A DNA stretch of 64,000 nucleotides. It comes from Panopea generosa. Lineage: Eukaryota; Mollusca; Bivalvia; Adapedonta; Hiatellidae. Shown piece by piece: positions 8,350 to 53,436 of the stretch. Where the stretch lies: the NCBI GenBank assembly GCA_029582155.1, contig CM055894.1:30781707-30845706 (forward strand), written 5' to 3'. The notes beneath the pieces were generated by a model, which did no database searches, was not told where the DNA came from, and saw only the letters and a list, made by a program, of their open reading frames with translations. A program made the translations under genes and the position numbers. Numbering within the stretch: position 1 is the first letter of the stretch; every line of letters begins with the position of its first letter.

Positions 8350-8377
8350 CTACACGGAGAGGCTTCGACCAGTAGAG
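8350..8377 (-). CDS. Candidate terminal coding exon of the minus-strand gene
   Basis: The acceptor ends ...TTATTATTCTAAG at 8378-8390. The previous exon (9413-9560) ends in phase 2 with AG; adding the first base here gives a Ser codon, then STGRSLSV and a TAG at 8350-8352. The last residues L-S-V would fit a hydrophobic-x-hydrophobic PDZ-type ligand, which is inference from the motif alone. Downstream sequence to about 8291 is less AT-rich than its surroundings and would be 3' untranslated; it contains a possible donor GAG|GTAATT. In another frame the same segment is open for 28 codons, so the assignment rests on phase only. Confidence 0.35.
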
Positions 8378-8390
8378 CTTAGAATAATAA

Positions 8391-9412
8391 TATAAAATCA
8401 AGCAGTATATTTTGTTGTACACCATTTTTCATTATTTTTTTCTTTCTTGAATCTCTCTTTTCTTAATTATATGAAGTCTATAATGAACATGACCATACAA
8501 GAGATGTCATAAGGACAGCATGCTCGACTATTCTAAAATACTTACAAACACTTAGTGTAAAGCATTTAATACTAAAAGAATATTTGTTCAAGTTATTAAG
8601 GGAACACCTGAATAATATGTAAATTTAACTTTTTTAATGACGATACAAACTTGGAAAGAGAGTTGAAAGATGTAAAAAAAAAAAGAAATATATCATCAAC
8701 AACAAAAATGTTGCTTAAACAAAGGCAGTGTCTTAAACAGAACTGTAATACATTGATAAGAAACTGCATTAAATTAAAATAAAAAGAGAACAAAAGCGTT
8801 GCACACAAGCAAAGGAACTAATTTACAAACAATTGCAACAATCACTTTACAAAGTTAACATTCTTACAAATATTACATCTACTACATTTTTTTTTCAAAA
8901 AACAAATAAAGAGCTTTGTATAAAATATTAAAAAATGCAACACAAATCTTCAAGAATAATTGGAAAAATAGCGGCCCAAATATTTGGACCTAAGTGGCTC
9001 ATCTGATTTCACCAGTCACTTGTTATCAAACTTTGAATGGACTAAGTCTATAAAGAACATTAATATAATATTATGTAGATGAAAAAAACAACAAAAATTA
9101 TCTGTTTTCCTATAGAATTGTTATGTAAAAAACCAAAGGCCCAAATACACCCAAGCTCCTTTATTTGAACAAACTTGAAACCCATAGTCAAAGAGATCAT
9201 TCAAAACAAATCTTGTTTGTCAGTTCTTGAAAAGATTTTTAAATTCAAAATTTCCCCATGTTGAGTTGATAAGTCCCCAAAGAAAGGCCAATTTTGAATG
9301 ATCACAATACCGTAGCTCACCCAAAGCTTTGCACAGATGAGCAAAAAACTACATAAGAGACAAATGACAAACTACAATCTATTTCCTTACGCATACAATT
9401 AAAGTATCATAC
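8391..9412. other. Intron-like AT-rich sequence
   Basis: Contains A- and T-runs and no supported exon. It would be the last intron of the minus-strand gene if the terminal exon call is right. Confidence 0.4.
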
Positions 9413-9560
9413 CTTTCATCCTCCTCTCTGACAACAGTAGGCTGTGGTCTGACTGATGCTGGCTTTTGTGGCAGTTTTTTCTTATCTTTTAATGACATTG
9501 CTACTGCACTACCAGTAACTCCAGAGCTTCCTGTACCTCCATTGTCTCTGTTCTCAGTAG
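9413..9560 (-). CDS. Cytoplasmic-tail exon of the minus-strand gene
   Basis: A 148-nt exon with a strong acceptor (CTGCTTTTTCAG, then CTACTG) and donor (GATGAAAG|GTATGA). It enters in phase 1 and leaves in phase 2, with no stop in that frame. It encodes a hydrophilic segment: TENRDNGGTGSSGVTG, then a basic patch (SLKDKKKLPQKP), then RPQPTVVREEDE. The low hydrophobicity, Lys cluster and Pro pairs fit a cytoplasmic tail with possible SH3-type proline sites (PQKPASVRPQP). The sequence is less AT-rich than its flanks, as expected for coding DNA. Its incoming phase matches the outgoing phase of 14418-14474. This is one of the best-supported host exons in the window. The family is not recognised. 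Confidence 0.7.
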
Positions 9561-9904
9561 CTGAAAAAGCAGTATGACATTTCTGACATCAATAATAATG
9601 CACAGGTGAGAAGAGAAGGGTGCAGGGCTGTCTGGATTATATTCAAGTCTTACTACAAATCAGTTATTTGCCTGCTTTTGACTCAATTCAAATCTCAAAG
9701 TTGTCAATGTGAATGTTTATATTTGTCTTCTAGTAATTTCAATATAACAATGTTGGATAATGGATAGTGATAAGTTTTTGTCACCAATCACAATGTGGTC
9801 AGGTTTATAAGCTTTTATTAATTACTGAATGCTGTTCTAGAGTACATGTACTGTCTTTTTTTTACACAATTTACTATTGTGGGTACAACAATGTAAAACT
9901 ATTT

Positions 9905-10175
9905 AGCTCATTTTTATGCCATTGAGGGCTAACAGATGATCAGTTAACCTAACCACTATTTTCTGAGATCCTGGAAGGTCAACAAGTACTCAAGCTCACC
10001 TATCTCCACAAGTAACTGATAACTTTCCCACTTGAATCAGCGATGAGAGACTAATGATAATGAGACGCAACGTCAAATATCAATAATCTCGGACACTGTG
10101 CCCTGACGAGGATTCTAACACATGACCCTGAATTGATAGTCAGATGCACTACTCACTAAGCTAACTGGGCCCCGG
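9905..10175 (-). repeat. tRNA-derived SINE (minus strand)
   Basis: On the minus strand the head reads GGGCCCAGTTAGCTCAGTGA, an A-box region, followed by a weakened B box TGTTAGAATCC at about 10108-10118. The body contains GATTCAAGTGGGAAAG and ends with GTTAGCCCTCAATGGCATAA. Same family as 27371-27630 and 40335-40650. Confidence 0.8.
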
Positions 10176-11757
10176 TAACTGGCTACGAAGCTGTGAAAGA
10201 TTGACTCGGTATCAGGCATATGAATTTTGATCAACACTGAATTTCAGGTAATTAGCATTTTATTTTTATTAGTTAAAGCAATCATTCTTGATTGTAAAGC
10301 AACAACAAGAATTACATTAATTTTGAAGAACACATTATACAAGACTCTAACAAAACACTTAAAGGTGACAATGACCATGCAACTCATTCCCATTGCTCTT
10401 AACAATGCTGTGAGTATTTATGGAATGTCTTATAATATTTGACAGTAACAACTCAATGAGTTTTTTTTTACTTACAGCAAAGATGACATTGGCCTTGAAG
10501 GTATAAACCATAATTTTGTAAATGACACACCTTCACATTGTCATAGATGTTTCAGTATGGATATAAATGGAATTATTCGTTTTTTGTATTTTTTCTATAA
10601 TTATATAAGTTTGATTTGTAATTTACAAACATCTGACATTTACAGGTGACCTTGAGCTTGAATGTTGGTATCTAAATTTTGTTAGCACACCACCTTCTCG
10701 TTGTCTAGACAATTTCCATTCAAATTGATGGAATTCCTGTATAGTTACAGTCGTGACATTATTGACAACATATGAACCTGAAACAGACTGACTTACAAAC
10801 ACCAGAACAACATCCTATATTTCGTGTGGGTATGATTTGTTTGTTTGAATATTTAGCGCCATTTTAATGCCATCGAACACTAAAAGACGATGTGTGGTTA
10901 TGAAAATAACGATGTAAAGGCACTGTCACTAAAGGAATTCCAAGCTGTCATAAAGAACAATCACAACTTGTACATGACATTGTCACTGGCTTCTTTTGGC
11001 CCCTAATGTTGTTTGTCTTCACGAAAGACATAGAGGTCATGAGCCTGTTTTTTTGTCAATGTTGCATCCGCACAGTGCCTATGGGTTTTATTAGTATGTA
11101 TAAATCCTCCATTGAGTAAGTTTAATTACCATTTTACAAGATGTGTGCATGCAGACATACTAAATAAAGAAACAAACAGCAAGGATCACAGTATACAGAA
11201 TCTTTCTTGAAACTTTCAGCATCAACACCATAGTTACAGATGAAACACCTTATCTATGGTAATGAAGCGGTTTCCGATAACCAAAATCCTCAAGAGCAGA
11301 ACTATCTGTCGTCATCATCAGATAAGCAAGAGAAATGGAATCTAAAAACAGTGGCTTTTAACAGAATTGTAGATACATCAAACATGAAAATACCCCTTAC
11401 TCCCAATTTAATGTTATCTAAAGAATGAAATCAACCTTACAGTGTAAGAATCTAAAACTTAATTGAGGTTCCAATCAAATAGTTGCAGATGCCTGCATAG
11501 CAACAAATACAAAAAATACATTTTGGTGCAAAAAGAATCACCAGTACATGTGGAGGTACCAGTATTGTGTACTAGGATCTTCTTACTTCCATTCCTTTGT
11601 GTGCAAAATATTTATCAAACAATATCTCAGACAGACAATGCCAAATCTGATGAAGACAGAAAAAAAAAAGCAGAAAAAATTATAGTAAATCAATGTTTGA
11701 GTAAAAAAAAACTTTGATAAAAAGATATGCAAAGCAACCATCTGATTATACTATTAT
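10176..11757. other. Intronic sequence, no supported exon
   Basis: Contains a short SINE-tail fragment at about 10862-10905 (TTTTAATGCCATCGAACACTAAAAGACG, minus). An 18-nt phase-compatible splice-flanked stretch at 10476-10493 is discussed under rejected items. No other feature seen. Confidence 0.45.
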
Positions 11758-12035
11758 TGGGTTGGTGGTGCAATGGATAGTGTTGAATGTTCAAGCCCAA
11801 GGCTAGTCATTTGCTCTCAGGCTTAACTAACTGGTCTTTCAAAATAACTCAATACTGGTTCTATCTTGATTAAAAAATAACTTAAATACTGGTTCTATCC
11901 AGATTTAAAAATAACTCAATACTGGTTTTATCCAGATTCAAATATAACTGGTTCTATCCATTTTCAAAAATAATTCAGTACTGGTTCTATCCAGATTCAA
12001 AAATAACTCAGTGCTGGTTCTATCCAGATAACAGA
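11758..12035. repeat. SINE-like head followed by about six ~33-bp tandem copies
   Basis: GGGTTGGTGGTGCAATGGATAGTG (11759-11782) resembles a SINE/tRNA-like head and is matched loosely at 18189-18215. From about 11850 to 12030 the motif ACTGGTTCTATCCAGATT recurs at 11853, 11888, 11921, 11947, 11979 and 12012, spaced 26-35 bp. Confidence 0.6.
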
Positions 12036-13559
12036 CCAGAGAGCAATTTTTTTGATATTCCATATACTGAGCTGGGTTCTTGAAAGAATGTACGTAGCTC
12101 AACAATTAATATAAACTCTAAGCTTACTTCACCATTGAGCTAAAATAAGTTAGTATAAACTTACTGTAGTCTTAATTCTTAATAGATAAAACTTCACCAA
12201 AAAAACATTTAGAAGCAGACATTTACAAAAGATTTACACACAGCATACCAAGACCAAAAAATTGCCCAACAAACCTAAAATATGGAATCCTGTTTAAATG
12301 AGTTTTCTAGTTTTTACTCTATTTATAGGTTATCACTGCATGCAAGAACCACAGTTCCTACTCTTGCCATCACTCAGGCAGTGCCCAGGAAGCACACAGA
12401 GGTTGATGATTTAACCACAATTTTATAATGAACCTGATAAAAAGTGGTGAAATGTACTTGATGATCATTTAGAGGAGAAACAGACAGTCAGCTCGTGTAG
12501 CTGAGCCTATAATGATGTGCAAGCCTATCAGATTATAGGGTGGTCTTGGGACTTGCCCCATCAAAAAAAGTTTAAATTTTAAGGATGCATTTCCTGTGTT
12601 TTGTGGGGTATTTTCAGGAGATATAACAATGCATTTGCAAGAATACATATATGTGCAAGCCAGGGCAGTGTGTGGTAAAGACAGCTGACGATGGTCCTAT
12701 TCTAGCTGGAAGTAAATAGCAGCAGAAACAGAAAGTGCACAAAGAAATATTGTTCATTCTCTGAACAGCAGTTTAAGAATTTCTATTGAACTGTAGAAGT
12801 TGTTCTGGAGAAAGCATGCACATTGAATATATAAGTAAGATGTCCTTGTTCTATTGTGGACTGTGACAACAAAAATAACACAAGAGATGTAACCATGTCT
12901 TTCAAACATTTTACCTATTCTGTAACTATAACTCTATTTCATGCCAGAATTTTAGTATACATTGAAGCAGAAAATAAAAAAGCATACAATTCAAATTTTG
13001 TTTTTTTATTTGTAAAACACTGATGCAATAGTTTTGTTAAAAAAGCACGAAATAAATTTTTTCTCTTGTTTCTGTGCTATTCACTGGTTGTTTGGATAAA
13101 ATATTACTTTCGTAATTCACATTATGAAAGATGTAATGTGATTATACTCGGATACAAATATGCATATTCATAAAATAATACATCAATATTTTCACATTTT
13201 GCATTGAGGCTTAAGTGGTGGTATTGTTTCCAGTACCCAAAGATAGGAGGTAAGTCACACATGCTCAACTGATAGCAACAATTTCTTAAACACGATGTTT
13301 GATTCTACAAATATATTACAAAACATTATGAGAAATTCAGCTGTGTTGTAAAAATTTTAAACGGACCTGTACATCTCTCTAATAATCATTTGTATTTTTT
13401 ATAATACTTTTTGCGTCATGGCTATCAACTGAGCAAGGGCACCCCAAACCATTTCCAAGATAAAAATGTGCATGTTAATGGAGTTTCATTTTAAAATGTA
13501 TCAATACATCAATCCAAACTTTTTTAGTATCTTCATCAAAATAACAAAAGAAAAAGATT
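12036..13559. other. Intronic sequence; one dispersed repeat segment
   Basis: About 12350-12470 (CTCTTGCCATCAC, then GTTGATGATTTAACCACAA and CCTGATAAAAAGTGG) is related to about 25915-26000 (TTCTTGCCATCAC, then GTTGATAATTTAACCACAA). No exon supported. Confidence 0.45.
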
Positions 13560-14300: not shown

Positions 14301-14417
14301 AACCTGGTTAACAACACAAACCTAAAAGGATAGCAACTTAGGTAATTGTTGTCACAAATTTGAACAATAATCGACTGGGAACTTAACAATGTAGACCTTT
14401 TTCAGAGAGTGACTTAC

Positions 14418-14474
14418 TTGCTGGCTGATTTTGGTCTGCTTTGTTTGCATCATTGGCATCATTGTGGGAGAAAG
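14418..14474 (-). CDS. Cytoplasmic exon of the minus-strand gene (57 nt)
   Basis: Acceptor AACTCTTAG, then CTTTCTCCC; donor CAGCAA|GTAAGT. Exactly 19 codons, phase 1 in and phase 1 out. The open frame reads FSHNDANDANKADQNQPA, hydrophilic and Asn/Asp-rich. The next exon (9413-9560) completes the split codon to Thr. The acceptor sits only about 10 bp from the end of a 21-bp-unit minisatellite, so the intron's 3' end has repeat DNA at its branch/pyrimidine region. Confidence 0.6.
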
Positions 14475-16236: not shown

Positions 16237-16263
16237 CAGTGACAATCTGTGTAAGTTGATTAG
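16237..16263 (-). CDS. Possible 27-nt microexon of the minus-strand gene
   Basis: Bounded on the minus strand by AG (ACCAAG, then CTAATC) and by a strong donor GTCACTG|GTAAGTTAAC. Phase 1 in and out, encoding NQLTQIVT plus split codons, so inclusion would not change the frame. The acceptor lacks a good pyrimidine tract, and a competing AG within the segment would leave only 10 nt. Confidence 0.3.
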
Positions 16264-16385: not shown

Positions 16386-18175
16386 AATACTGATGGACTC
16401 AGTGATATAATAACTGATATAACAATAATCAAAGGACTCGATGTAACTGATATAACAATAATAAAATGACTGGATGTAACTGATATAACAATAATCTAAG
16501 GACTCGATGTAACTGATATGACTCAATGTAACTGATACAACAATAATGAAAGGACTCGATGTAACTGATATAACAATAATCAAATGAGTAGATGTAACTG
16601 ATATAACAATAATCAAAGGACTGGATGAAACTGATATAACAATAATCAAAGGACTGGATGTAACTGATATAACAATAATCCAATGACTGAATGTAACTGA
16701 TATAACAATAATCAAAGGACTAGATGGACCTGATATAACAATAATAAAATGACTGGATGTAGCTGATATAACAATAATCAAAGGACTCCATGTAATTGAT
16801 ATAACAATAATCAAAGGACTCGACGTAACTGATATAACAATAATCAAAAGACTCGACGTAACTGATTTAACAATAATCAAAGGACTAGACGTAACTGATA
16901 TAACAATAATCAAAGGACTCAACGTAACTGATATTACAATAATCAAAGGACTGGATGTAATTAATATAACAATAATCAAAGGACTGGATGTAACTGATAT
17001 AACAATAATCAAAGGACTGGATGTAACTGATATAACAATAATCAAATGACTAGATGGATCTGATATAACAATAATAAAATGACTGGACGTAACTGATATA
17101 ACAATAATCAAAGGACTCCACGTAACTGATATTACAATAATCAAAAGACTCAACGTAACTGAAAAAACAATAATCAAAGGACTCTACGTAACTGATATAA
17201 CAATAATCAAAGAACTGGACGTAACTGATATAACAATAACCAAAGGACTCGACGTAACTGATATAACAATAATCAAATGACTCGATGTAACTGATATAAC
17301 AATAATCAAAGGACTAGATGTAACTGATATAACAATAATCAAAGGACTGGATGTAACTGATATAACAATAATCAAAGGACTGGATGTAACTGATATAACA
17401 ATAATCAAATGACTAGATGGATCTGATATAACAATAATAAAATGACTGGACGTAACTGATATAACAATAATCAAAGGACTCCACGTAACTGATATTACAA
17501 TAATCAAAAGACTCAACGTAACTGAAAAAACAATAATCAAAGGACTCGACGTAACTGATATAACAATAATCAAAGAACTGGACGTAACTGATATAACAAT
17601 AACCAAAGGACTCGACGTAACTGATATAACAATAATCAAATGACTCGATGTAACTGATATAACAATAATCAAAGGACTAGATGTAACTGATATAACAATA
17701 ATCAAATGACTAGATGGACCTGATATAACAATAATAAAATGACTTGATGTAACTGATATATCAATAATCAAAAGACTCCACGTAACTGATATAACAATAA
17801 TCAAAGGACTTGACGTAACTGATATAACAATAATCAAAGGACTCAATGTAACTGATATAACAATAATCAAAGGACTAGATGTAACTGATATAATAATAAT
17901 CAAACGACTGGATGTAACTGATATAACAATAATCAAAGGACTAGATGTAACTGATATAACAATAAACTAAGGACTCAATGTAACTGATATAACAATAATC
18001 AAACGACTAGATGTAACCAATATAATAATAATCAAATGACTGGATGTAACTGATATAACAATAATCAAAGGACTGGATGTAACTGATATAACAATAATCA
18101 AAGGACTGGATGTAATTGATATTAAAATAATCAAAGGACTCGATGTAGCTGATATAACAATAATCAAAGGACTGA
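16386..18175. repeat. Minisatellite, 33-bp unit, about 54 copies, with higher-order repeats
   Basis: The unit runs from GGACTCGATGTAACTGATAT to ACAATAATCAAA (33 bp). A variant unit TAGATGGAYCTGATATAACA recurs at 16721, 17051, 17414 and 17711; the spacings 330, 363 and 297 bp are exactly 10, 11 and 9 units. The blocks starting at 17051 and 17414 share the rare ACTGAAAAAACAATAATC unit as well, so an 11-unit block was duplicated recently. The minus strand shows long open frames with an 11-residue period (SPLIIVISVTS); I read these as a by-product of unit length. Confidence 0.95.
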
Positions 18176-19095: not shown

Positions 19096-19119
19096 CATCA
19101 AACAGGGTAAATTGATAAC
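19096..19119 (-). CDS. Possible 24-nt microexon of the minus-strand gene
   Basis: Acceptor GTTTATGATTAG, then GTTATC; donor TTTGATG|GTAAGAAT. Phase 1 in and out, reading YQFTLFD plus split codons. The split bases complete to Gly after the transmembrane exon and to Ala before the next exon. It is symmetric like its neighbours, as expected of an optional cassette in a cytoplasmic tail. Only short splice signals support it, so it could be chance. Confidence 0.4.
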
Positions 19120-20469: not shown

Positions 20470-21456
20470 TGTAGTGAAAAATGTAGAAATTTATGTTATA
20501 TTTCTCCTGTTCCACTGTAATTGTGCAGTAAAAAAATGCAGAAATTTATGTTATATTTTCTCTTGTTCCACTCACTGTAATTGTGTAGCATATGTAGAAA
20601 TTTATGTTATATTTCTCTTGTTCCACTGTAATTGTGTAGTGAAAGATGTAGAAATTAATGTTATATTTTCTCTTGTTCCACTGTAATTGTGTAACATATG
20701 TAGAAATTTATGTAATATTTACTCTTGTTGCACTGTAATTGTGTAGTGAAAGATGTAGAAATTAATGTTATATTTTCTCTTGTTCCACTGTAATTGTGTA
20801 ACATATATAGAAATTTATGTAATATTTTCTCTTGTTCCACTGTAATTGTGTAACATATGTAGAAATTTATGTAATATTTACTCTTGTTGCACTGTAATTG
20901 TGTAGTGAAAGATGTAGAAAATAATGTTATATTTTCTCTTGTTCCACTGTAATTGTGTAACATATGTAGAAATTTATGTAATATTTTCTCTTGTTCCACT
21001 ATAATTGTGTATAGTGAAAAATGTAGAAATGTATGTATTAACATTTCTCTGCATTAAGTGAACTATGTACTAATTAAAGTTATAATTTCTTGTTCCACTG
21101 TAACTGCGTAGTGATATGTGTACAAAATAAAGTGTTCTAATTTCCCTTGTGTCACTGAAACTAATTAGGTGTTATCATATTTCTTGTACCATTGTAATTG
21201 TGTAGTGAAGGATTAGAACTTTTCGCTTTTTCCTATGTAACTGCGTAGTGATATGTGTACAAAGTAAAGTGTTCTAATTTCGCTTATAGAAATGAAACTA
21301 TTAAAGTGTTAACATATCTCTTATACCACTGTGATTGTGTAGTGAAAGATTAGAACTTTTCTCTTTTTCCTTTGTAACTGCGTAGTGATATGTGTACAAA
21401 GTAAAGTGTTCTAATTTCTCTTGTAGCAATGAAACTATTAAAATGTTAACTTATCA
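20470..21456. repeat. Minisatellite, ~55-bp units grading into ~125-bp units
   Basis: Units carry TGTAGAAATTTATGTTATAT and CTCTTGTTCCACTGTAATTG. In the first half they alternate between 'AACATATG' and 'AGTGAAAG' junctions, giving an apparent ~110-bp dimer. From about 21040 the units are longer and add AACTGCGTAGTGATATGTGT and AAGTGTTCTAATTTC. The array is interrupted at 21457 by a LINE and resumes at 23632. Confidence 0.85.
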
Positions 21457-23631
21457 ATTATATCTTTAAAGTGCTTAATTATTTTAATTTTGGAAATTCT
21501 TTTATTAGTTGGATTAAAATGTTTTATAATGATGCACAAAGTTGTGTAATAAATAATGGACACATGTCAGAATTCTTTAAAATAGATAGGGGAGTAAGAC
21601 AAGGATGTCCACTATCGCCATATCTGTTTATTTTAGCTATTGAAGTTTTATATAAATCTGTTCAAAACGATGTTAATATTAAAGGCATAACCATATACGA
21701 CAGAGAGATTAAAAATACTGCTTTTGCAGATGATGCCACATTTATGCTGGATGGAACAAAAAACACTTTTACAACCTTAATAAAGAAAATTGACAAATTC
21801 AGTAAACTATCAGGTCTTAAACTTAATTCTAGTAAATCAATAATTTTACGTTCAGGTGCTTTAAAAAACTCAAATGAAACTTTTAATACCAAAACAAAAT
21901 TCATATGGACATCTGACAGTGCAGCTACCCTGGGAATCACATTTACAAATAAAAAACAACTATATCATGAATTGAACCTTCTTCCAAAAATAAACCAATT
22001 TTGTAATTGCCTTAATCGATGGAAGAAGTATAATTTATCTATTATCGGAAAAATTGTAGTGATTAAAACATTTGCATTACCAAAACTGATATATCCGCTA
22101 ACCGTACTAGAAAATCCACCAATCGAATATTTTGATTTAATAAATAAGAGCATGTATAACTTTTTATGGGATAATAAACCGGATAAAATTAATAGAAAAA
22201 CAATTATACAAAATTACGAAAATGGGGGTTTAAAAATGATAGATCTGCAATTATTTATAAAATCGATTAAAGCCGGGTGGGTCAAACGTATTATAAATGA
22301 TCAAAATAAAGGGGACTGGAAACACATATACTTAAAACAATTAGATAAATTGGGAGGACGATTTTTATTTGAATGTAACATCAAAGGGACAGACCTAAAC
22401 AATACAACTCAAATAACTTCTAAATTTTTATCAGACATAGTATCATCATGGTCAAATATAAACTTTAGTGAACATACTGAAAATGTAAAAACGCAGGTAA
22501 TATGGAACAACTCCTTTATTAAAAACAATAACAAAACACTTTTCTACAAACCATGGTATGATAAAGGAATAAAATATATTGACCAACTCTTTGATAACAG
22601 ACATAAATTATTTCATACATTTCAATATATGAAAACTATACATGCTTTAGACAACACGGATTTTTTAAAATATCATAAACTTATTCAAAGTATACCTCGC
22701 TCTTGGAAGGTTAAACTCAAGAATGATATTATATCATCAAATACGCAACAAACAAAACTAGTACAACAAATTAAGACTTCAAACAGTCCAAACAAATATT
22801 TATATAATAAACAGTTAAATTGTATCGAAAACACGTTAGTCATCAAGCCGCATATTAAATGGGAGCAAGAAATAAATAACATAAACTGGAAAACTGTACA
22901 TACTATACCTATCAAATCTTTAATAAATACAAAATTAAGGGCGTTTCAATATAAATACTTGATGAGAATAATCCCAAACAACAAATTTCTGTTTAAATGT
23001 AATATTAATAACACAAGCTTGTGTGATTTTTGCAACATGCATGAAGAATCAAATAAACACTTGTTTTGGGAATGTCATATTTCGAGAAGTTTTTGGACAG
23101 AAATTCAAATGTTTTTAAATGAAAAACAGATACACATACATTTGAATTATTCAATGATCTCCTTTGGATATGTGGACCAGAGTAGCTACACTAACTTATT
23201 AAACTGTATATTGATATATGCAAAATACTTCATTTTTAAAAACAAATATGCAAACACAATACCGAATTTTAACAATTTTAAAAAATATTTAAAATACCAT
23301 GAAAACCTTGAAAGATTAATTGCACTGACAAAAGACAAAATTACACAACATGAAAACAAATGGAATAAACTGCAATTTTTCTAATACGAAATGTTAATCT
23401 ATAAAGTGTCAGTGTGGAGTAATTTACTTCTTTCTAAACAAAAAAATCTTATTCTTCGCCTTTTTTTTTTTCTCTTCTCTCCGACCTATTCTGTCAAAAT
23501 CCTAAACTTTATTTCTGATATTACGTTCATAAACAAATATATATGAAGACTGTAAATTGCATTATGTATGTAATAATAAATTGTATGTGAATGTACTATG
23601 GAAATAAAAAAAATTGAAAAAAAAAAAAAAA
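21457..23631 (+). mobile_element. 5'-truncated L1/Tx1-like LINE inserted in a minisatellite
   Basis: Begins mid-coding and ends after a 3' untranslated region and a run of A's (about 23617-23633). Possible imperfect target duplications are AACTTATCA (21449-21456 region) and AACATATCA (23632-23640). The minisatellite motif continues on both sides: ...ATGTTAAC before, CATATCATTTGAACCACTG after, matching ATATCTCTTATACCACTG of an uninterrupted unit. This is the hallmark of a target-primed reverse-transcription insertion with 5' truncation. Confidence 0.85.
21459..23384 (+). CDS. C-terminal two-thirds of a LINE ORF2 (reverse transcriptase palm to C-terminus)
   Basis: An open frame of about 640 codons with no stop until TAA at 23382-23384. 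There is no real start codon because the element lost its 5' end; counting below is from the GTG at 21471. It starts just after the first catalytic Asp block of RT. It holds GVRQGCPLSPYLF, FADD (residues 85-88), the SGLKLNSSKS thumb-side block and LWDNKPDKINRKTI. Near the C-terminus is a zinc knuckle CDFCNMHEESNKHLFWEC. The GCPLSP version of the block is typical of L1/Tx1-group elements. Endonuclease and part of the RT are missing, so it cannot move by itself. The intact remaining frame suggests a fairly recent insertion. Confidence 0.85.
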   Translation, partial: YIFKVLNYFNFGNSFISWIKMFYNDAQSCVINNGHMSEFFKIDRGVRQGCPLSPYLFILAIEVLYKSVQNDVNIKGITIYDREIKNTAFADDATFMLDGTKNTFTTLIKKIDKFSKLSGLKLNSSKSIILRSGALKNSNETFNTKTKFIWTSDSAATLGITFTNKKQLYHELNLLPKINQFCNCLNRWKKYNLSIIGKIVVIKTFALPKLIYPLTVLENPPIEYFDLINKSMYNFLWDNKPDKINRKTIIQNYENGGLKMIDLQLFIKSIKAGWVKRIINDQNKGDWKHIYLKQLDKLGGRFLFECNIKGTDLNNTTQITSKFLSDIVSSWSNINFSEHTENVKTQVIWNNSFIKNNNKTLFYKPWYDKGIKYIDQLFDNRHKLFHTFQYMKTIHALDNTDFLKYHKLIQSIPRSWKVKLKNDIISSNTQQTKLVQQIKTSNSPNKYLYNKQLNCIENTLVIKPHIKWEQEINNINWKTVHTIPIKSLINTKLRAFQYKYLMRIIPNNKFLFKCNINNTSLCDFCNMHEESNKHLFWECHISRSFWTEIQMFLNEKQIHIHLNYSMISFGYVDQSSYTNLLNCILIYAKYFIFKNKYANTIPNFNNFKKYLKYHENLERLIALTKDKITQHENKWNKLQFF

Positions 23632-26521: not shown

Positions 26522-27370
26522 TTAATGCCCTATCGGCATTCATCAAAAATGTGTGGGCATAAAAAGAACAGATAATAGCAAGAACTGTTAGAGTCATACT
26601 CAACCACATCAATCCTGTCTCTAATAATATGAAATAGCAAATTTAAAATATGCAGTGAGCACTTCTATAACAAACACCACTATGTATATCTGGAGACAAT
26701 TCAGTCAACAGTAGAACTCCAAAACTAAAAGTCAACCGACTTTGACCAAGGTTAATACCTATACACTTTAACCATATTTAATCAACAAATATTAACAATA
26801 TCTTTCTGAATTATGTTTAAACTGACAATTTGATTTTGTATTATCAATCTTATGATAGGTCTTCAAAGTCAATGAATTCTGCCCAGAATCAAGTTTGATT
26901 GTCAGATGAGCAAATAGGAAAAGAAAAGGCAATATTTACAAGGTGACTTAGTAATTATACAAGTGTGTCACATTCCACAAACACACATAGGTATGATATA
27001 GACACTGTCCAGTACACACACATAAAATCATTACAAATATTACATTATATTTCACAACAAAAAAACATTTCTAGATGATACAAAACGTTATGTTTTAATT
27101 CTTTCCTTTATATAAGAATATTGAAATATTTATGTGTTATTTTTTTTAAAATGGAATTTAATCCCATTCCTGTTTTAATACAATAACTGCCATATATAAA
27201 TTTAGAGGACCATCTGAAACCTGCATACAAGCTCATGTACAAGAATCGGAGATGAGCTGCTTTTCTTAAGCAGAAATCTGGGAAATAATTTTGCAGAGGC
27301 TGTGCCAAAGATCACTCTACCATGGAGGACTTTTTAATTGGGTTTCATTTTCAGCTTAAATATTAAGCAT
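26522..27370. other. Intronic sequence, nothing recognised
   Basis: No splice-flanked frame or matched repeat. Confidence 0.4.
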
Positions 27371-27630
27371 AAATTTTATGCCATCAAGGGCTAACAGATG
27401 ATCAATAAGCAAACCACTCTTTCCTGGGATCCTGAAAGGTTACCCAGTTCTAAAGTGCACCCACTTCACAAGTAACTTTCCCACTTGAATCAGCAGTGAG
27501 AGACAAATGGCAATGTGACTCAATGTCATATATCAGTCTTCAGAGACTGTGGCTGGGCGGGGATTCGAACTCACGACCCCTGGATCGATAGTCAGACGTG
27601 CTATTGACTGAGCTAACTGGGCCTGGCTTT
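27371..27630 (-). repeat. tRNA-derived SINE, best-preserved copy
   Basis: On the minus strand: GGCCCAGTTAGCTCAGTCAA (A-box region, plus 27606-27622) and GAGTTCGAATCCCCG (B box, plus 27558-27572). The body has GATTCAAGTGGGAAAGTTAC and ends GTTAGCCCTTGATGGCATAA. The intact internal promoter boxes make this the clearest family member here. Confidence 0.9.
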
Positions 27631-38710: not shown

Positions 38711-39117
38711 AACAAGAGGGCCAGAATTGTCCTTACTTGCTAATATGCCGCAGAGGAGACAATGTCGAAGACAGCAATTTTTACAGGTGCTAGAGTGTAC
38801 ATAACATCATATTATGTAATTTTTGTTGATTCAAAGACTACAACACCCGATATTATTAATCCAATCTGGCCAGTTCCAAAACCCTGTCCAAGATATAATG
38901 GTTACAATCATAACAACTGTGTAAGTTTGATGAATATCGAATATAAACTGTGAGTGCTAGAGTGCATACAACATTAAATACACACAATTTTTAACCATTC
39001 AAGGGCCAAAACTCTGACAATATTTTTTCGATTGGATGGCCAGTTCAAGAATTCATTCAATATATTATGGTTACATAATAAGTGTGCAAGTCTGCCAATA
39101 ATTAAATGAAAACTACT
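38711..39117. repeat. AACAAGAG-headed array, ~2 units
   Basis: Head AACAAGAGGGCCAGAATTGTCC, followed by units with GGTGCTAGAGTGTACATAA, TTCAAGGGCCAAAACTCTGAC and GGCCAGTTCAAGAATTC, the 36964 unit family. Confidence 0.75.
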
Positions 39118-40029
39118 TTTAGAACTGGTCCTTGTCTCATAAGTATTAACAGGATATCCAAGTTTGATTAATATCTTGCTTCAAACAAGATTGAAAAGTG
39201 GGATTTTAGATAAATCGAAATGAGTAATTATTTCAGCTCTGACAATTGGAACAGACTGGTTTTAGAACTCATCTTAAGAAACTGGGTAACGGATATATTA
39301 CGTCATGTCCAGATTTGAATTAAATCCTATCAAAAACAAGTTGACTGCTTTTAAAAAGCATCCAATGGTTAGGTCTTATAAACGATGTGGCAATTAAAGT
39401 GAATGAATGTGTAAGTTTGGTTCCTTGGTTCCAATAACACTTTTATTGGATAAACAAGATGGGTATGCAGACAGACTATGTACAAAAGACAGCTTACCAC
39501 CACAAAATCATTCAGCTGGAGTAGCAATAAATTTTATTTTTTTTAAATTACATTATCACATTTGGTGGGTTTGTATTTTTTTATGTTTTTTTTGTTTTTT
39601 AAGAAAATAAAAAGGGTCGGGTGACATGAAAATTACAGGGCGGGGATGATAATCTAGCAATTCATTTGTTATGGCCTTAGATAATCAAGATGAAAGTGCT
39701 TTTTTCTTTATTTCAATTTTAGAACTGGTCCTTGTCTCATCAGTTTTAACACGATATCCAAGTTTGATTAATATCTTGCTATAAAACAAGATTGAAAAGT
39801 GGTATTTTAGACAAATCAAAATGAGAAATTATTTCAGATATGACAATTGAAACAGACTGGTTTTAGAACTTATCTTAAGCAAATTGAGTAATGGATATAT
39901 TACGTCATGGCGAGATTTTAATTAAATCCTATCAAAAACAAGTTGACTGCTTTTAAAAAGCATCCAGTGGCTAGGTCTTATAAACGATGTGGCAATTAAA
40001 GTGAATGAATGTGTAAGTTTGGTTCCTTG
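39118..40029. repeat. Long direct repeat (39118-39428 and 39717-40029) flanking a MITE
   Basis: Two ~310-bp copies start TTAGAACTGGTCCTTGTCTC and end GAATGTGTAAGTTTGGTTCC, with only scattered differences. Between them lie about 290 bp including a truncated 'GCTAGATTATCATCC' MITE (39526-39681). The second copy stops about 80 bp from the transmembrane exon's donor. Confidence 0.85.
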
Positions 40030-40109
40030 TACAGGGTACTAAATACATGGGTGATACCAAATTCCGACAAAATTCCGGCTGACACATTGAATTCGTGTAA
40101 AGAACTTAC

Positions 40110-40236
40110 CTTCTGCAAAACATAATGGTTTCTTACAATAAAGAACAATGATGGCGTTGATGCAGGATGACGACAACCTCTGCAATGACAATACCAACAA
40201 TTGCACCTGTTGGTAAGCCGCCACCACCACCACCAC
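40110..40236 (-). CDS. Transmembrane exon of the minus-strand gene, apparently frameshifted
   Basis: Strong acceptor (TTTTTTTTATTGCAG) and strong donor (GCAGAAG|GTAAGTTC). Entering in phase 1, as the upstream Ser/Thr-rich exons require, it reads a Gly run then GLPTGAIVGIVIAEVVVIL, the first part of a membrane helix. That frame stops at TAA in the exon. Leaving in phase 1, as the downstream exons require, the exon reads INAIIVLYCKKPLCFAE: the other end of a helix followed by a basic stop-transfer motif. The two halves are in different frames and the exon is 127 nt, one more than a multiple of three. A single-base insertion around 40155-40170, or a sequencing error, would explain it. The Gly run is encoded by a (GGT)n tract. 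Confidence 0.7.
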
Positions 40237-40334: not shown

Positions 40335-40616
40335 GTTTTTGGCAATCCTGATCAGTCAGCACTCTGGACTTTTTCTGCTTCACAGTCTGATTATCAATCC
40401 AGGGGTCGTGAATTCGAATCCCCGGCAACAGTCTCCATAATGACTGATATACGACATTGTGTCTCATTATCATTCGTCTCTCACCGGAGATTCAAGTGGG
40501 AAAGTTATCATTACTTGCTGAGATGGGGTGTGCTCGAGTTCTAGTTAATCCTAGGAAACAGTGGTTAGGTTAACTGATCGTCTGTTAGCCCTCAATAGCA
40601 TAAAAATGACGCTAAT

Positions 40617-40650
<34 letters not shown>
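40335..40650 (+). repeat. tRNA-derived SINE with (CAAT)n tail
   Basis: B box GAATTCGAATCCCC at 40409-40422 after a degenerate A box. The body has GATTCAAGTGGGAAAGTTA and ends GTTAGCCCTCAATAGCATAA. The tail is about eight copies of CAAT (40618-40650). Same family as 27371-27630 in opposite orientation. Confidence 0.85.
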
Positions 40651-43734: not shown

Positions 43735-44830
43735 TGTTGAATATGCAACAAAGAGGAGGATAACAGTGATATTTTTTGTCTAAAGCATTGCCAGATATAT
43801 GGAACTGGGAGCTGAGAAGCTTCTTATATGCCTGCACCTGCATTAACATGTAGGAAGATAGGACCTAAGTCTTAAGCATTGTCGGATATGGGAAAAGGGA
43901 ACTGCAAAAGCACCTGCTATAACATAATTTAGGACGACAATACTGTTATGTTTTTTTTTCTTAAGCATTGCCAGATAATTATAGAAGAAGGGGAGGCAGA
44001 AGCTGTTGATGCCTGCACCGGCTAATTATAACATACTGTAAAATCGTTAGTACAGGCATAATACAAGTCATGTCTAATAAACATAATAAAATCTTTAAAA
44101 TATTTTTGAAAGTGACTGGAAAACTTCATTTTCAAATAAATTCCTCTTTTCAGAAAATTGTACTAGATTTTAGTTTTATATAGACTTGAAAAGATGTACC
44201 AAAATCACAAAGTTCTCTTTTGATTGAGATTTCTAATATTTTGTTAATGCGTGTAAAAACTAAAATTTCTCTACAGCAGTAACTGATTTCACTGGAAATA
44301 ATTGATATAGCGCATACATACATCATGTGTTCAGGGGTGTACACTATACACGGGTGCCAAAAAGCGCATACACTTTTTCATGGGGACTCCTGTGGGGATG
44401 AAACAAAGCCCAGGGTATTCACAGTAGTCAGCTAGTAAGCCTGCAAAACTAGACTTAGCTGACTCCATCATTAAAAAGAAGTGTCAATAGTTTTTACTAT
44501 GTGATTCAGGTTCTATCATGTAGTTATACATACTAGTTGTATCAGAAGCGGATGAAGATGAAATGTTAGTTGGTACAGATGTTGTCTGTTGTGAAGCTGT
44601 AGTTGAAATTGCTAGTGCTATATCAGAAATAATGAAATTAATAAAATATTGTACTGAATGAAAATAACAAGAAAATTATAGAGATTCTCTTGTATCAGGA
44701 AAAGCAAAACAACTTAAACACATGAAAATATAATATTATCCAATGAAATCAGTCAATCTTTGATATATTGTAATCAAATTCAAATTTAAAAACAATCAAC
44801 ACAAAAGTATTCAAAGGAACTGTTTGCAAT
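43735..44830. repeat. Segmental duplication, copy A
   Basis: Co-linear with 51330-53690. Matching blocks: the ~98-bp GCAGAAGCTGTTGATGCCTG tandem units; CATACTGTAAAATCSTTAG; CTTGAAAAGATGTACCAAAATC; GTAGTTATACATACT; TATCAGGAAAAGCA; and GGAACTGTTKGCAATTTTTA at the far end. It carries the coding exon 44534-44617. Confidence 0.8.
44534..44617 (-). CDS. Ser/Thr-rich extracellular exon of the minus-strand gene (84 nt)
   Basis: Acceptor TTTCTGATATAG and donor GATACAACTA|GTATGT. Exactly 28 codons, phase 1 in and out. About 16 of 28 residues are Ser or Thr, including an SSSS run, and there is one N-glycosylation sequon (N-I-S). This composition is typical of mucin-type O-glycosylated stalks. The split codon completes to Ser with the transmembrane exon (40110-40236). 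A shorter paralogous exon with the same splice signals lies in the other copy of the segmental duplication (53407-53436). Confidence 0.65.
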
Positions 44831-45766
44831 TTTTACTTTATTCAACCAGCTGCATTACTAAATTAAACCTATGTTTTTCTTTTAAAGAATGAATATCAGG
44901 ATTTTTCATAACTTTAAAATTGGTTAAAGGCATTTTTGTCCAAATATATCATGTCTATGTATACAAAATGGCCTCATATTGCCCTAAGTACATCTATTCA
45001 AACATGCCAACATAATATACTGTAATGGGGTTTCAGCTGCCCAAAGCAAAATGGTTGGCATTTGCTCCAAACAGTTAATTCATTCCTTTCTGAATAATTT
45101 ACTATGATCCAGAATAATTTACATTTATTTTGATAATGAATTATTTACAATTGCGCAAATTAGAATGATTACATTTGTGGATAAGTGTTGGCCACTCATA
45201 CCTGAGCCACGGCTCTCCCAAATAGCCTCTTAAAACCAACTGTCAGTTCTGATTCTACCCAGGAAATGGACTCAAGAATAATTCATATTTTTGTGATGGG
45301 GCAAAAATAAATTTAAAATAAAAGCATCACCTGATAACCTCAGAGTGAATCTGAGTAAAACAATAATTTCTGTCCTTTAGCAAGTAACTGGAAAACTTCA
45401 TCACATAAAGAATTTGAACCAAGCTGGATTCGAACCCATGACCTCAGCAGTGTAATTCAATTAAATTTCAAGCAAAATTATCTACATCTTCTCCAGTCAG
45501 AATGGCTTACAGTTGTCTCACTTGATCCGCCCAGTCAGAAGGAGGCAATAACTTGATGTCCAGTCCAACTTTTTAAATTAAGATTCTGTCTGCGTCACAT
45601 TTAATATCAAGCAATGGTAAACCATCCTATGGTTTTAAAACAATAAAAAATACTTTTACTATTTAAACAATATATCTTTGTATTATAATTTGTACATTAA
45701 GCTACATTTAAGTTCTAAGTACATATGTATAGATTATGTTTTGAATACTTTAAAAATGTCCATCTC
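44831..45766. other. Non-coding; dispersed repeats
   Basis: 44884-45025 belongs to the 'ATCAGGATTT' family. 45320-45470 resembles a minus-strand SINE head (GGATTCGAACCCATGACCTC). No exon supported. Confidence 0.5.
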
Positions 45767-48142: not shown

Positions 48143-48646
48143 AACACAAATGCTTCTTAGAACAAAAAACATAGCTTTGTTTTACAAGGAGTATAATGCT
48201 TAGTAACGTTAAACATGTAGCTCAGTTTAAGTATTAAAATTAATAATTTTATTAGTGTTTTTCATTGAAAATAGATAGGGCCATGATAATTCTGCTTGTG
48301 TCATGACGTTTGAAAAGTTAATGGCCCTGTGGCCATGATCATAAAAAAGTTAAGTCACACACTGCACAAACCCACAATGGCAACTTTTGCAAGATAAACT
48401 TTATGATACAAAATATCGGAATTTGGTACAATTCTAACAGAAAAACGTTCCAAAATACAAAAATGAAGAAGCTAACTTGCTACTATCATACTACAGAATA
48501 TTTCAAGGAGGTTTTACCAAATTTCAAGGAGTTTTTTTTACAAAATTTAAGCACTATTCCAGGACAAATTCCATTTTACCAACCTTCAAGTAGTTTTCAA
48601 GGATAAAACAGACTTCAAGGACTTTTCAAGGACTGTGCAAACCATG

Positions 48647-49324: not shown

Positions 49325-50890
49325 GTTACCTCCCACTGGGGTCTCAGTGTGGTAATCCCCTGTAACATTTTCTACTGGGATCTCAGTGTGGTAATCCCCA
49401 GTAACACTTTCTACTGGGATCTAAGTGAGGTAATTCCCTGTAATATTTTCTAATGGGATCTCACTGAGGTAATCCGCTGTAACATTTTCTACTGGGATTT
49501 CAGTGTGGTAATCCGCTGTAATTCTTTCTACTGGGATCTCAATTTGGTAATCCCCTGTAAGATTTTTTACTGGGATCTCAGTTTAGTTATCCCCTGTAAC
49601 ATTTTTTACTGAAATCTCATTGTGGTAATCCCCTGTAACATTTTCTACTGGGATGTCAGTGTGGTAATCCCCTGTTACACTTTCTACTGGTATCTCAGTG
49701 TGTTAATCTTCTGTAACACTTTCTACTGGGATCTCAGTGAGGTAATCCGCTCTTCTATTGGGATCTCAGTGTGGTAATCCCCTGTAACACTTTCTACTGG
49801 GATTTCAGTGTGGTAATCCTCTGTTACACTTTCTATTGGTATCTCAGTGTGGTAATCTTCTGTAACACTTTCTACTGGGATCTCAGTGAGGTAATCCCCT
49901 GTAACATTTTCTACTGGGATCTCAGTGAGGTAATACGCTTTTTTATTGGGATCTCAGTGTGGTAATCCCCTGTAACACTTTCTACTGGGATTTCAGTGAG
50001 GTAATCCCCTGTAATATTATCTACTGGGATCTCAGTGAGGTAATCCGCTGTAACATTTTCTACTGGGATTTCAGTGTGGTAATCCCCTGTAACTCTTTCT
50101 ACTGGGATCTCAATTTGGTAATCCCCTGTAAGATTTTTTACTGGGATCTCAGTTTAGTAATCCCCTGTAACATTTTTTACTGAAATCTCAGTGTGGTAAT
50201 CCCCTGTAACATTTTCTACTGGGATGTCAGTGTGGTAATCCCCTGTTACACTTTCTATTGGTATCTCAGTGTGGTAATCCACTGTAACACTTTCTACTGG
50301 GATCTCAGTGAGGTAATCCCCTGTAACATTTTCTACTGGGATCTCAGTGAGGTAATCCGCTTTTCTATTGGGATCTCAGTGTGGTAATCCCCTGTAACAC
50401 TTTCTACTGGGATTTCAGTGAGGTAATCCCCTGTAACATTTTCTACTGGGATCTCAGTGTTTTAATCCCCTGTAACATTTTCTACTGGAATTTCAGTGAG
50501 TTAATCCCCTGTAATATTTTCTACTGGGATCTCAGTTTGGTAATCCCCTGTAACATTTTCTACTTGGGTGTCAGTGAGGTAATTCCCTGTAACATTTTCT
50601 ACTGGAATCTCAGTGTGGTAATCCCCTGTAACATTTTCTACTGGGATCTCAGTGAGGTAATCCCTGCAACACTTTCTACTGGTATGTCAGTGTGGTAGTC
50701 CACTGTAACATTTTCTACAGGGATCTCATAAGTGGTAATCCCCTGTAACATGTTCTACTGGGATATCAGTGAGGTTATCCCCTGTAACATTTTCTACTTG
50801 GATCTCAGTGTGGTAATCAATCCCCTGTAACATTTTCTTCTAGGATCTCAGTGTGGTAATCCCCTGTAATATTTTCTACTGGGATATCCA
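49325..50890. repeat. Minisatellite, 39-bp unit, about 40 copies, with higher-order structure
   Basis: The unit runs from CTGGGATCTCAGTGTGGTAA to TCCCCTGTAACATTTTCTA. Shortened 25-bp units (AATCCGCTTTTCTATTGGG type) occur near 49744, 49931 and 50354. A multi-unit block is duplicated: the variant AATTTGGTAATCCCCTGTAA is at 49541 and 50112, a 571-bp spacing equal to fourteen 39-bp units plus one 25-bp unit. The plus strand reads VIPCNIFYWDLSV; the minus strand reads VENVTGDYHTEIP. Both frames are broken by the 25-bp units. Confidence 0.95.
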
Positions 50891-51329
50891 AAATGAACTG
50901 ATTGTTGTTACTACAAAATTTAATATTTTGCCAAAAAATACACCACAGACATTAATGCTTTTATTTACAAACATAAATTATATAACCATAATCAAGATGA
51001 GAACAATGAGCAGTGTCATAGTTTCAAACATCATTAGTAGGAGATCATTATTTCTTATGTACTCATGAAAACTATGCCTTGATTTAAATATTTTAGATAC
51101 ATGTATTATTTTTCTTGAAAAACAATGTGAGACTAATAAACTGAAATGAGCAATTTGATGGTTAGAATATTTCAAACAAAGGACCATACTATTATTTTAG
51201 TTTGTGACCAGAAAAAAATGTCATTATGGTGATCTTTAATTGCCAGTAATGGGTAAATACAACTGATGCAAAAACTATAGACTTTGTTGCAGCGAGTCAT
51301 CCTGTGATGGATAAATAGTAATATCAATA
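50891..51329. other. Non-coding sequence, nothing recognised
   Basis: AT-rich spacer between the 39-bp minisatellite and the segmental duplication. Confidence 0.45.
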
Positions 51330-51439
51330 TATAACTAATAGGAGGACATAGTATTGTGATGTTTCTGTAATTGCCAGATATAGGGACATTCCAAACTGTT
51401 TCTTATAACAGCTATTGCTATATAGGCGGGTATAAGTAC

Positions 51440-52210
51440 TGTGATAATCCTTATCAGGTACTGGGAACCGAGAGGCAGAAACTATTTATGCCCGCACCTG
51501 CTTTATAACATAATTACATATAGCATGATGGCGCAGTGATAATTTTTGGCTTAAGCATTGTCAGGTACAGGGAACTGGGAGGCAGAAGCTGTTTATGCTT
51601 GCAACTGCTATATAACATATAGCAGAATAGTGCAGCGATGGTTTTTGTCTTAAGCTTTTTCAGGTACAGAGAACCGGGAGGCAGAAGCTGTTGATGCCTG
51701 CACTTGCTATATAACATATATCAGGATAGTGCTGTGACTGTTTTTGCGAGCCCGGCGGCAGAAGCTGTTGATACCTGCACTTGCTATATAACATATAGCA
51801 AGATAGTGCAGCAATGGTTTTTGTCTTAAGCATTGTCAGGTACAGGGAACTGGGAGGCAGAAGCTGTTTATGCCTGCACATGCTATATAACAGATAGCAG
51901 GATAGTGCAGTGATGGTTTTTGCTTTAAGCAATGTCAGGTACAGGGAACCGGGAGGCAGAAGCTATTTATGCCTGCACCTGCTATATAACATATAGCAAG
52001 ATAGTGCAGTGATGGTTTTTGTCTTAAGCATCGTCAAGTACAGGGAACTGGGAAGCAGAAGCTGTTGATGCCTGCACCTGCTATATAATATATAGCAGGA
52101 TAGCACAATGATGGTTTTTGCCTTAAGCATTGTCTGGTATTATTTAGGGAACTTGGAGGCAGAAGCTGTTTATGCTGGTACCTGCTATACAACATACTGT
52201 AAAATCCTTA
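51440..52210. repeat. Tandem array, ~98-bp unit
   Basis: Units contain TACAGGGAACTGGGAGGCAG, AAGCTGTTTATGCCTGCACC and TGCTATATAACATATAGCAG, the last being a short palindrome. At least seven copies, with one partly deleted unit near 51740. Confidence 0.85.
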
Positions 52211-52325
52211 GAAGAGGCATAATTCAAGTCATGATTTATAACTTTTGTTCACTTTAAGAAAAAAAAATGTTTTTATTAAAACTGGTGAGAAAAACAAATT
52301 TAAATTAATTATCTTTAATTATCAA

Positions 52326-52425
52326 CATGGTTCATATAGACCTTAGTGACAAAAATTCAAGGACTTTTCCAGGACTATTTGTCAATTTTCACAGACTCAT
52401 ATGTGCGGACAAACCTTGTAATATA
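52326..52425. mobile_element. Short hAT-type MITE
   Basis: Left CATGGTTCATATAGACC, with internal TTCAAGGACTTTTCCAGGAC, and right GTGCGGACAAACCTTG, an imperfect inverted match to the left end. The ends match those of the 46881-48646 element. Confidence 0.5.
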
Positions 52426-52698
52426 TTTTTTGAAAATGACTTGAAATCAAAGGAACTACATGTATTTATCACTTCACTTTCAAATAAATCCCTCTTTACA
52501 AATAAGTATACATGTATTTGTCACTGCACTAGATTTTACAGTTTTATATAAACTTGAAAAGATGTACCAAAATCACAAGTTCAATATATTTCTTGTTATT
52601 AAATATTACTTTAATTACATATAAAAAGGAAAAGCACACAATTAATTGATAATTGAGAATAGCTTAATTCCTAAGCTTGCTGGTCTTGTACAGTGAAT

Positions 52699-53205
52699 CA
52701 CTAAGGTACCATTAAGATGTGTTCCTGCAAAGATATTATGGGTTATTGAAGACCATAAGGAATAACAAAATAACAAATGATAAAAGGTACCACAATTGTA
52801 CACTAAGGTGCCATTAAGATGTGTACCTGCAAAGATACTATGGGTAATTGAAGGCCATAAGGAATAACAAAATAACAATGGATAAAAGGAACCACAATTG
52901 TACACTAAGGTACCATTAAGATGTGTTCCTGCAAAGATACTATGGGTAATTGAAGGCCATAAGGAATAACAAAATAACAATGGATAAATGGTACCACAAT
53001 TGTACACTAAGGTACCATTAAGATGTGTTCTTGCAAAGATATTATGGGTTATTGAAGACCATAAGGAATAACAAAATAACAATGGATAAATGGTACCACA
53101 ATTGTACACTAAGGTACCATTAAGATGTGTTCTTGCAAAGATATTATGGGTTATTGAAGACCATAAGGAATAACAAAATAACAATTGATAAATGGTACCA
53201 CAATT
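52699..53205. repeat. Tandem array, exactly 102-bp unit, 5 copies
   Basis: CTAAGGTRCCATTAAGATGT recurs at 52701, 52803, 52905, 53007 and 53109, exactly 102 bp apart. Unit length divisible by three and absence of stops give a 180-codon minus-strand frame with a 34-residue period. Repeat-to-repeat identity is high, indicating recent expansion or homogenisation. Confidence 0.95.
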
Positions 53206-53406
53206 TTTTAAAGGCTTTATGTAAGGGAATTACCACAAAATCTCTCATGGCATTTAAAGAAAAAACTACATTAAGCGATGAACAAAGCATGGCGTATTCA
53301 CATAGCCAACTAGCAAGCCTGTGAATGAAGTAAACTCCATCAATAAAACAAGTAGCTTAATATTTTTAACTTTGTGATTAAGGTACTTTCATGTAGTTAT
53401 ACATAC

Positions 53407-53436
53407 TTGGTGAATTGAAAGTAGTTGTTGCTGATG
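53407..53436 (-). CDS. Paralogous Ser/Thr-rich mini-exon (30 nt) of the minus-strand gene
   Basis: Acceptor TTTCTGATACAG and donor TCACCAA|GTATGT are near-identical to those of 44534-44617. Ten codons, phase 1 in and out, reading SATTTFNSP plus split codons. It is the counterpart exon in copy B of the segmental duplication. The retained frame and splice sites in both copies argue that they are coding; the difference in length reflects gain or loss of Ser/Thr codons. Confidence 0.5.

Follow-up and report, generated by a model that had tools for sequence, protein, structure and literature searches.

Between positions 8350 and 53436 of a 64,000-nucleotide (nt) stretch of the geoduck Panopea generosa genome (contig CM055894.1; this stretch is referred to here as the window), eight short segments of the minus strand had been proposed to be the exons of a single gene. 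Comparison of these segments with related loci in the same assembly suggests, with a probability that we place at about 0.72, that they belong to a gene family that was duplicated as large segments along one chromosome, with the 3′ part of one member lying in the window. The eight pieces are probably components of a small cell-surface protein gene that is drawn out over a long distance and present in several copies, of which the copy in the window is incomplete.

Exons and reading frame of the window copy

All eight segments were extracted at the positions given in the original prediction. Each is preceded by AG and the first seven are followed by GT, and the eighth terminates in TAG. On the minus strand the model begins with two serine/threonine (Ser/Thr)-rich exons: exon 1 (53407–53436; 30 nt, encoding SATTTFNSP, bordered by AG and GT) and exon 2 (44534–44617; 84 nt, 56% Ser/Thr), which would encode most of an extracellular stalk and carries an N-I-S sequon that is also present in two related copies described below (P28 and P42). 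The transmembrane (TM) exon, exon 3 (40110–40236; 127 nt), is followed by two microexons, exon 4 (19096–19119; 24 nt, YQFTLFD) and the doubtful exon 5 (16237–16263; 27 nt), then by two tail exons, exon 6 (14418–14474; 57 nt) and exon 7 (9413–9560; 148 nt), and finally by exon 8 (8350–8377), which supplies the C terminus and the stop codon. Exons 1, 2, 4, 5 and 6 are symmetric (phase 1-1) with lengths that are multiples of three, and exon 7 is of phase 1-2. Two AATAAA motifs on the same strand (8155–8221), 129 and 190 nt beyond the stop codon, are possible polyadenylation signals; with 93 occurrences of this motif on the minus strand, they are weak evidence for such a function.

The segments had been described as joining in frame with one exception. 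This stands for exons 1–2 and 4–8, which are mutually in frame, and fails at exon 3, which breaks the chain; we take this break to be the exception that was meant. Read in phase 1, exon 3 of the window gives SGGGGGGLPTGAIVGIVIAEVVVILHQRHHCSLL and then a stop, so the reading frame closes inside the TM exon. The phase-0 frame of the same exon is open, yet its hydropathy is 1.69 compared with 2.27 for the phase-1 frame as written, and it was rejected. The window therefore does not contain the intact gene originally envisaged, because its TM exon is out of frame and the chain is not open.

Related copies on the same contig

The assembly that holds the window comprises 1,474,161,289 bases in 39 contigs. 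A search with exon 7 recovered five further copies on the window's own contig, at 28.7, 42.9, 44.9, 46.2 and 47.1 Mb, all on the same strand. The resulting family of six, with copies between 28.7 and 47.1 Mb, is a lower bound that rests on a single search with a single exon. The exon 7 pattern was also searched for in bacterial and archaeal contigs, where none of 593 pattern matches was confirmed. Three of the copies (P28, at 28714582–28767657 of the contig, P42 and P47) were compared over 60 kb each; the other two (L005 and L006) are known only as 3-kb loci. Chained alignments, with tandem repeats masked, show P28 to be collinear with window positions 132–53452, of which they cover ~32 kb; those with P42 and P47 cover ~18 kb and ~23 kb, respectively, with little of P47 aligned beyond 42.7 kb. 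Dispersed, collinear, multi-kilobase copies of this kind are the mark of a gene family in interspersed segmental duplications.

Exon by exon, the correspondence extends along the whole model. P28 retains exon 1, which differs there by a net 6 nt in length; 60 kb each of P42 and P47 yielded no exon 1. Exon 2 is kept in P28 and P42. The sequence of exon 4 is identical in P28 and differs by one synonymous change in P47, and P42 has lost it within a deletion of ~615 nt that leaves the frame unharmed. Exons 5, 6, 7 and 8 are kept in all three copies, exon 6 without gaps, and the L006 copy of exon 7 (1501–1612 of that locus) shows a net in-frame loss of 36 nt relative to the window.

All eight exons of P28 keep their AG and GT and join into one frame of 184 codons followed by a stop. 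Exons 2, 3, 5, 6, 7 and 8 of P42 join into one frame of 161 codons that reaches the same stop, and exons 4–8 of P47 are open through to it; the reading frame and stop of exon 8 are common to the three copies. The claim of one minus-strand gene of ~45 kb, built from Ser/Thr-rich, TM, microexon and tail exons, is borne out to this extent, as the same pieces join in a single frame in P28. As far as sequence comparison can tell, the paralogues supply the support for the chain as a whole that the window does not.

The transmembrane exon and the state of the window copy

The break in exon 3 is absent from P28 and P42. The P28 counterpart (138 nt, phase 1-1) is in frame and reads TKSDEDGGLSIPEIVGIVVAVVAVVCIIIITIIVLLKKKMLSFAG, with a hydropathy of 3.69, and that of P42 (123 nt, phase 1-1) is likewise in frame and reads ADDKTHDSGLSDAEIAGIVIGSIAGVAIICATVFLYVKFK, with a hydropathy of 2.47; the two share 42–47% amino-acid identity. 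We scanned the loci, blind to position, for phase 1-1 exons of 90–220 nt with fair splice scores and a hydropathy above 1.9, thresholds that were chosen after the TM exons of P28 and P42 had already been seen. One candidate emerged in P28 and two nested candidates in P42, all at the TM position, with none in the window, in P47 or on the four plus strands; the means in 25 Markov sequences per locus were 0–0.24. In a comparable scan for Ser/Thr-rich exons, the longest candidate of the window, of P28 and of P42 was in each case a version of exon 2; a few shorter unrelated candidates also appeared, including one on the plus strand of P42 and two on that of P47.

The surroundings of the TM exon have their own history. 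In 60-nt bins, the intron that precedes this exon is 87–97% identical between the window and P28, and the bins over the exon are 70–83% identical. The intron stretch that adjoins it (39680–40094) does not align with P28 (415 nt in the window versus 254 nt in P28), and beyond this stretch identity is back to at least 90%. Just downstream of the TM exon, positions 39717–40029, inside the unalignable stretch, are a 93% local duplicate of 39117–39427. P42 is ~91% identical to the window at 8–16 kb and at 44.5–46 kb; from 18 to 43 kb its similarity is patchy, mostly 67–83%, with short pieces of up to 89%.

Because the break is shared by neither P28 nor P42 and an unalignable intron lies beside the TM exon, the window copy is most likely a degenerating one. 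It would also be compatible with our overall explanation for the window copy to be intact and the frame break to be an assembly error or a rare, damaged allele, and the remaining exons of the window are indeed mutually in frame. We consider this unlikely: the TM exon of the window differs from that of P28 by 27% and its downstream intron flank cannot be aligned, which indicates a real history of rearrangement in the region.

The uneven similarity across the TM region could reflect an exchange of blocks among the copies, or losses and divergence that differed from place to place. A bolder proposal, to which we would give only a small chance, is a dispersed, fast-changing family of surface proteins whose copies trade blocks that carry the TM part, possibly along with the stalk, and keep a nearly constant tail. 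Were this true, modules would be swapped to diversify the cell surface, possibly for recognition or defence, and, if block exchange is real, the locus would offer a natural case of phase-1 modules swapped between duplicates.

Duplicated stalk exons

Self-alignment of the window shows that the two Ser/Thr-rich exons lie in an old duplication, whose partners are a block with exon 2 (43747–44842) and a block with exon 1 (51889–53686) that contains tandem repeats. The blocks are homologous in three pieces, at 67–76% identity. In one pairwise alignment, the exon-bearing parts are identical at 314 of 383 ungapped positions, and the acceptor, donor and frame of exon 1/exon 2 are preserved despite a length difference of 54 nt. 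Depending on the reference copy, 2 of 17 or 2 of 11 phase-1 candidates in the forward orientation are valid in both blocks, each time two forms of exon 1/2, and 0 of 36 or 0 of 1 in the reverse orientation. The exon 1 and exon 2 acceptors are not lined up in BLAST and MAFFT alignments of the blocks, so the retention test for this pair depends on the alignment.

The accompanying idea, that symmetric phase-1 exons make the gene modular, is supported in part. Exons 1 and 2 are carried by the old duplication and exon 4 was lost from P42 with the frame kept. Further partial support comes from the TM exon and the intron flank downstream of it, which diverge from P28 as one unit.

Chance, constraint and decay

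Splice sites were scored with approximate human-type matrices, and the null sequences were first-order Markov sequences. The minus strand of the window contains 3,157 scored AG and 3,776 scored GT sites. Phase-1 open AG..GT pairs of 15–60 nt number 1,505 on this strand, 1,255 on the plus strand and 1,253–1,455 in five Markov sequences; with so many short candidates, a chain alone proves nothing. When equally good candidates were counted inside the interval of each exon in 60 Markov sequences, an equal by splice score was present in 100% of the sequences for exons 1, 2 and 5, 93% for exon 6, 68% for exon 4 and 12% for exon 7, and in none for exon 3; this count considered phase-1 open exons, and exon 3 is closed in phase 1. 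The acceptor of exon 3 is in the top 0.2% and its donor in the top 0.1% of the minus strand, and the sum of the two is the highest among the candidates listed. Exon 2 is unmatched in composition: neither the plus strand nor any of 20 Markov sequences contains a phase-1 exon that reaches both 75 nt and 50% Ser/Thr. Exon 5 combines a strong donor with a poor acceptor; among acceptors within 300 nt of this donor, none makes an alternative symmetric phase-1 open exon, and a better-scoring one would make a 10-nt exon. The window alone supports the TM exon, the Ser/Thr exon and perhaps one tail exon, and leaves the chain as a whole unsupported. We rejected splice scores and shuffled sequences as the sole judge of the chain because microexons of equal quality are frequent.

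As a control for retention, we used the share of all phase-1 open AG..GT pairs of the window that are still valid in the paralogues. Minus-strand pairs of 15–35 nt survive in 227 of 382 cases in P28, in 135 of 316 where two or more paralogues can be aligned and in 65 of 157 where three can. For pairs of 36–70 nt the figure is 41 of 139 (three paralogues), and for those of 71–200 nt it is 24 of 204 (two or more) and 10 of 83 (three). Six of the seven exons tested (exons 1, 2 and 4–7) are retained wherever they can be aligned; exon 3 fails because the window copy of it is out of frame. Multiplied together, the matching control rates for these six give ~4 in 10,000, which is a guide only: the events cannot be treated as independent, and the control exons are all symmetric, whereas exon 7 is asymmetric. 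Retention proves no single exon.

These numbers bear on the possibility that the segments are chance open stretches between AG and GT, apparently kept only through the duplication of whole blocks. The abundance of short phase-1 candidates, the survival of 12–59% of control pairs, a ratio of non-synonymous to synonymous differences (pN/pS) near 1 and the chance-level splice scores of exons 1, 2, 4, 5 and 6 are all what it would predict. We nevertheless regard it as very unlikely, given the low product of control rates (for events that, again, are not independent), a position-blind scan that recovers the TM exon at matching positions in two paralogues when under 0.3 chance matches per locus are expected, and joined frames in P28 and P42 that reach the same stop.

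Length differences were compared as well. Exon 3 aside, six of the seven net differences in exon length relative to the window are divisible by three, namely those of exon 1 of P28, exon 2 of P28 and exon 7 of P28, P42, P47 and L006; exon 7 of L005 is the exception. With exon 3 of P28 and P42 added, the count becomes six of nine, because exon 3 of the window is out of frame. By comparison, 57 of 285, 37 of 210 and 42 of 217 intron gaps no longer than 60 nt (18–20%) are divisible by three. The raw exon gaps are 12, 9, 6, 1 and 5 nt in P28 (three of five are multiples of three), 12 and 9 nt in P42 and 12 nt in P47; we read the P28 gaps of 1 and 5 nt as one 6-nt difference that the alignment has split.

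Several observations weigh against a family of working genes. The survival of control pairs means that retention of a single exon is common. Exons are 89–100% identical to their paralogues and their flanks 91–95%; apart from exon 3 (73% versus 91%), the exons are no better conserved than the flanking introns. Pooled over ten non-independent pairs, with small counts and with exon 3 and L005 left out, the true frame has a pN/pS of 1.01, which is not lower than the values of the two shifted frames (0.41 and 0.90); the substitutions show no constraint or purifying selection. Some of the length differences fall within 6- or 9-nt repeats, where multiples of three would be favoured without selection, and one is common to several copies. 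The acceptor of exon 5 ranks below ~70% of all AG sites. P47 has lost the TM region (5.6 kb in the window corresponds to 1.0 kb), exons 1 and 2 were not seen in its 60 kb, and the L005 copy of exon 7 (1501–1665 of that locus) has a frame-breaking length difference. Neither a start codon nor a signal peptide was found in the eight-exon model, and no recognisable ectodomain was apparent among minus-strand frames of at least 45 codons above 53.4 kb and below 8.35 kb, which were judged by eye without a domain scan.

Such observations could indicate that all copies are pseudogenes: a gene would have existed before the duplication, and its copies would now drift neutrally, with exons that stay readable for a while. 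A pN/pS near 1, exon divergence like that of introns, and damage or loss in half of the six copies (the window in its TM exon, L005 in exon 7 and P47 in the TM region) are consistent with this. It is nonetheless improbable in our view: the exons found in P28 and P42 contain neither a stop nor a frame break, and their TM exons have diverged strongly (42–47% identity) yet are both in frame and hydrophobic, which is not expected of drift. We favour a duplicated gene family with intact members as well as the probably decaying copy of the window.

Mobile elements and repeats around the gene

Plus-strand frames of retroelements occur on both sides of the gene and within it. At 57910–61404, a frame of 1,164 codons of the long interspersed nuclear element (LINE) type matches RVT_1 (E = 6.6 × 10−29) and has an endonuclease match below the cut-off. 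A second LINE frame (21450–23384; 644 codons, with RVT_1 and zf-RVT) has no room in P28, in which the corresponding gap is 623 nt, and may have been inserted in the window copy or lost from P28. Further reverse-transcriptase frames are located at 2268–3467 (with RVT_1) and 53789–55450 (with zf-RVT at 54839–55447). A dispersed repeat of ~200–270 bp that looks like a short interspersed nuclear element is present in both orientations, at 168–484, 9897–10171, 27356–27623 and 40385–40634, the last of these ~150 nt upstream of the TM exon; an Rfam search returned no match at the gathering score, this repeat included. Minisatellites lie in introns at 16411–18173 (33-bp units, ~53 copies) and 49335–50885 (39-bp units, ~40 copies), and the 33-bp array yields long open frames on the minus strand.

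Predicted protein

Intact members of the family are predicted to encode a type I single-pass membrane protein, the N-terminal part of which would lie outside what was found. Its stalk, short, Ser/Thr-rich and probably O-glycosylated, would derive from the two duplicated phase-1 exons, and one TM exon that ends in a basic stretch would anchor it with the stalk outside. The cytoplasmic tail would be short and hydrophilic, presumably spliced from one or two optional microexons and three tail exons. If expressed, the protein may display the glycosylated stalk and any upstream domain at the cell surface, and its tail may act as an anchor or docking segment. The window copy, if expressed, would give a protein that ends after a mostly hydrophobic run of ~15 residues and has lost the tail.

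Two points reach beyond this locus. A chain of 24–148-nt exons across 45 kb, spotted by eye, can point to a genuine gene family overlooked by scans for open frames, and paralogues within the same genome can test such a gene model without RNA.

Comparison with known systems

A search of Pfam with the joined P28 peptide listed eight families at E values of up to 1, all below the cut-off, of which podoplanin (PF05808; E = 3.2 × 10−5), glycophorin A (PF01102; E = 0.0065) and dystroglycan (PF05454; E = 0.014) were the best. Podoplanin was likewise first for P42 (E = 0.00036), below the cut-off; the scores of 24.7 bits (P28) and 21.3 bits (P42) fall short of the gathering cut-off of 30, and neither peptide is assigned to this family. 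The joined window peptide from exon 3 onward had no Pfam match. Searches of the PDB with the P28 peptide gave 11 weak matches (best E = 0.066), most of them on TM segments (for example, amyloid precursor) and two on the tail, and a further PDB search had a best E value of 0.47. All of these are resemblances of build: a stalk, a TM segment and a basic stretch. Podoplanin, glycophorin A and dystroglycan share with P28 a Ser/Thr-rich stalk, one TM segment and a basic stretch behind it; they differ in that the matches, all sub-cut-off, cover the stalk and TM segment only and the P28 tail matches none of them.

The original description of the gene as mucin-like is not supported at the level of the family, and nothing in the part found calls for it. 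The part of the gene that was found has a Ser/Thr-rich stalk of ~37 residues across two exons and no long proline-, threonine- and serine-rich (PTS) domain, and the joined peptides of P28 and P42 have no Pfam match to an SEA or VWD domain and none to any other domain above the cut-off. Transmembrane mucins, for which we take MUC1, MUC13 and MUC17 as the type, resemble the family in a Ser/Thr-rich ectodomain placed before a TM segment and tail, and differ from it in the long PTS domain and the SEA domain that the gene part found here lacks. P28 and P42 possess the TM segment followed by a cytoplasmic tail that marks a transmembrane mucin, and the window copy does not. The definition used for this comparison comes from an excerpt of PMC1552070.

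The symmetric class 1-1 module of Patthy (PMC8001218) is an exon between two phase-1 introns. By sequence, this form is seen in exons 1, 2, 4, 5 and 6 of the window and, for exon 3, in P28 and P42. Among titles and the openings of abstracts, none was found that concerns this gene. The closest genomic parallel is NPIP in primate LCR16a, a gene carried by interspersed segmental duplications for which positive selection is reported (excerpt of PMC7419210). NPIP is an unrelated protein from an unrelated animal, and its positive selection has no demonstrated counterpart here; what the two systems have in common is a set of large dispersed duplicates, intrachromosomal in this case, that includes both intact and broken copies.

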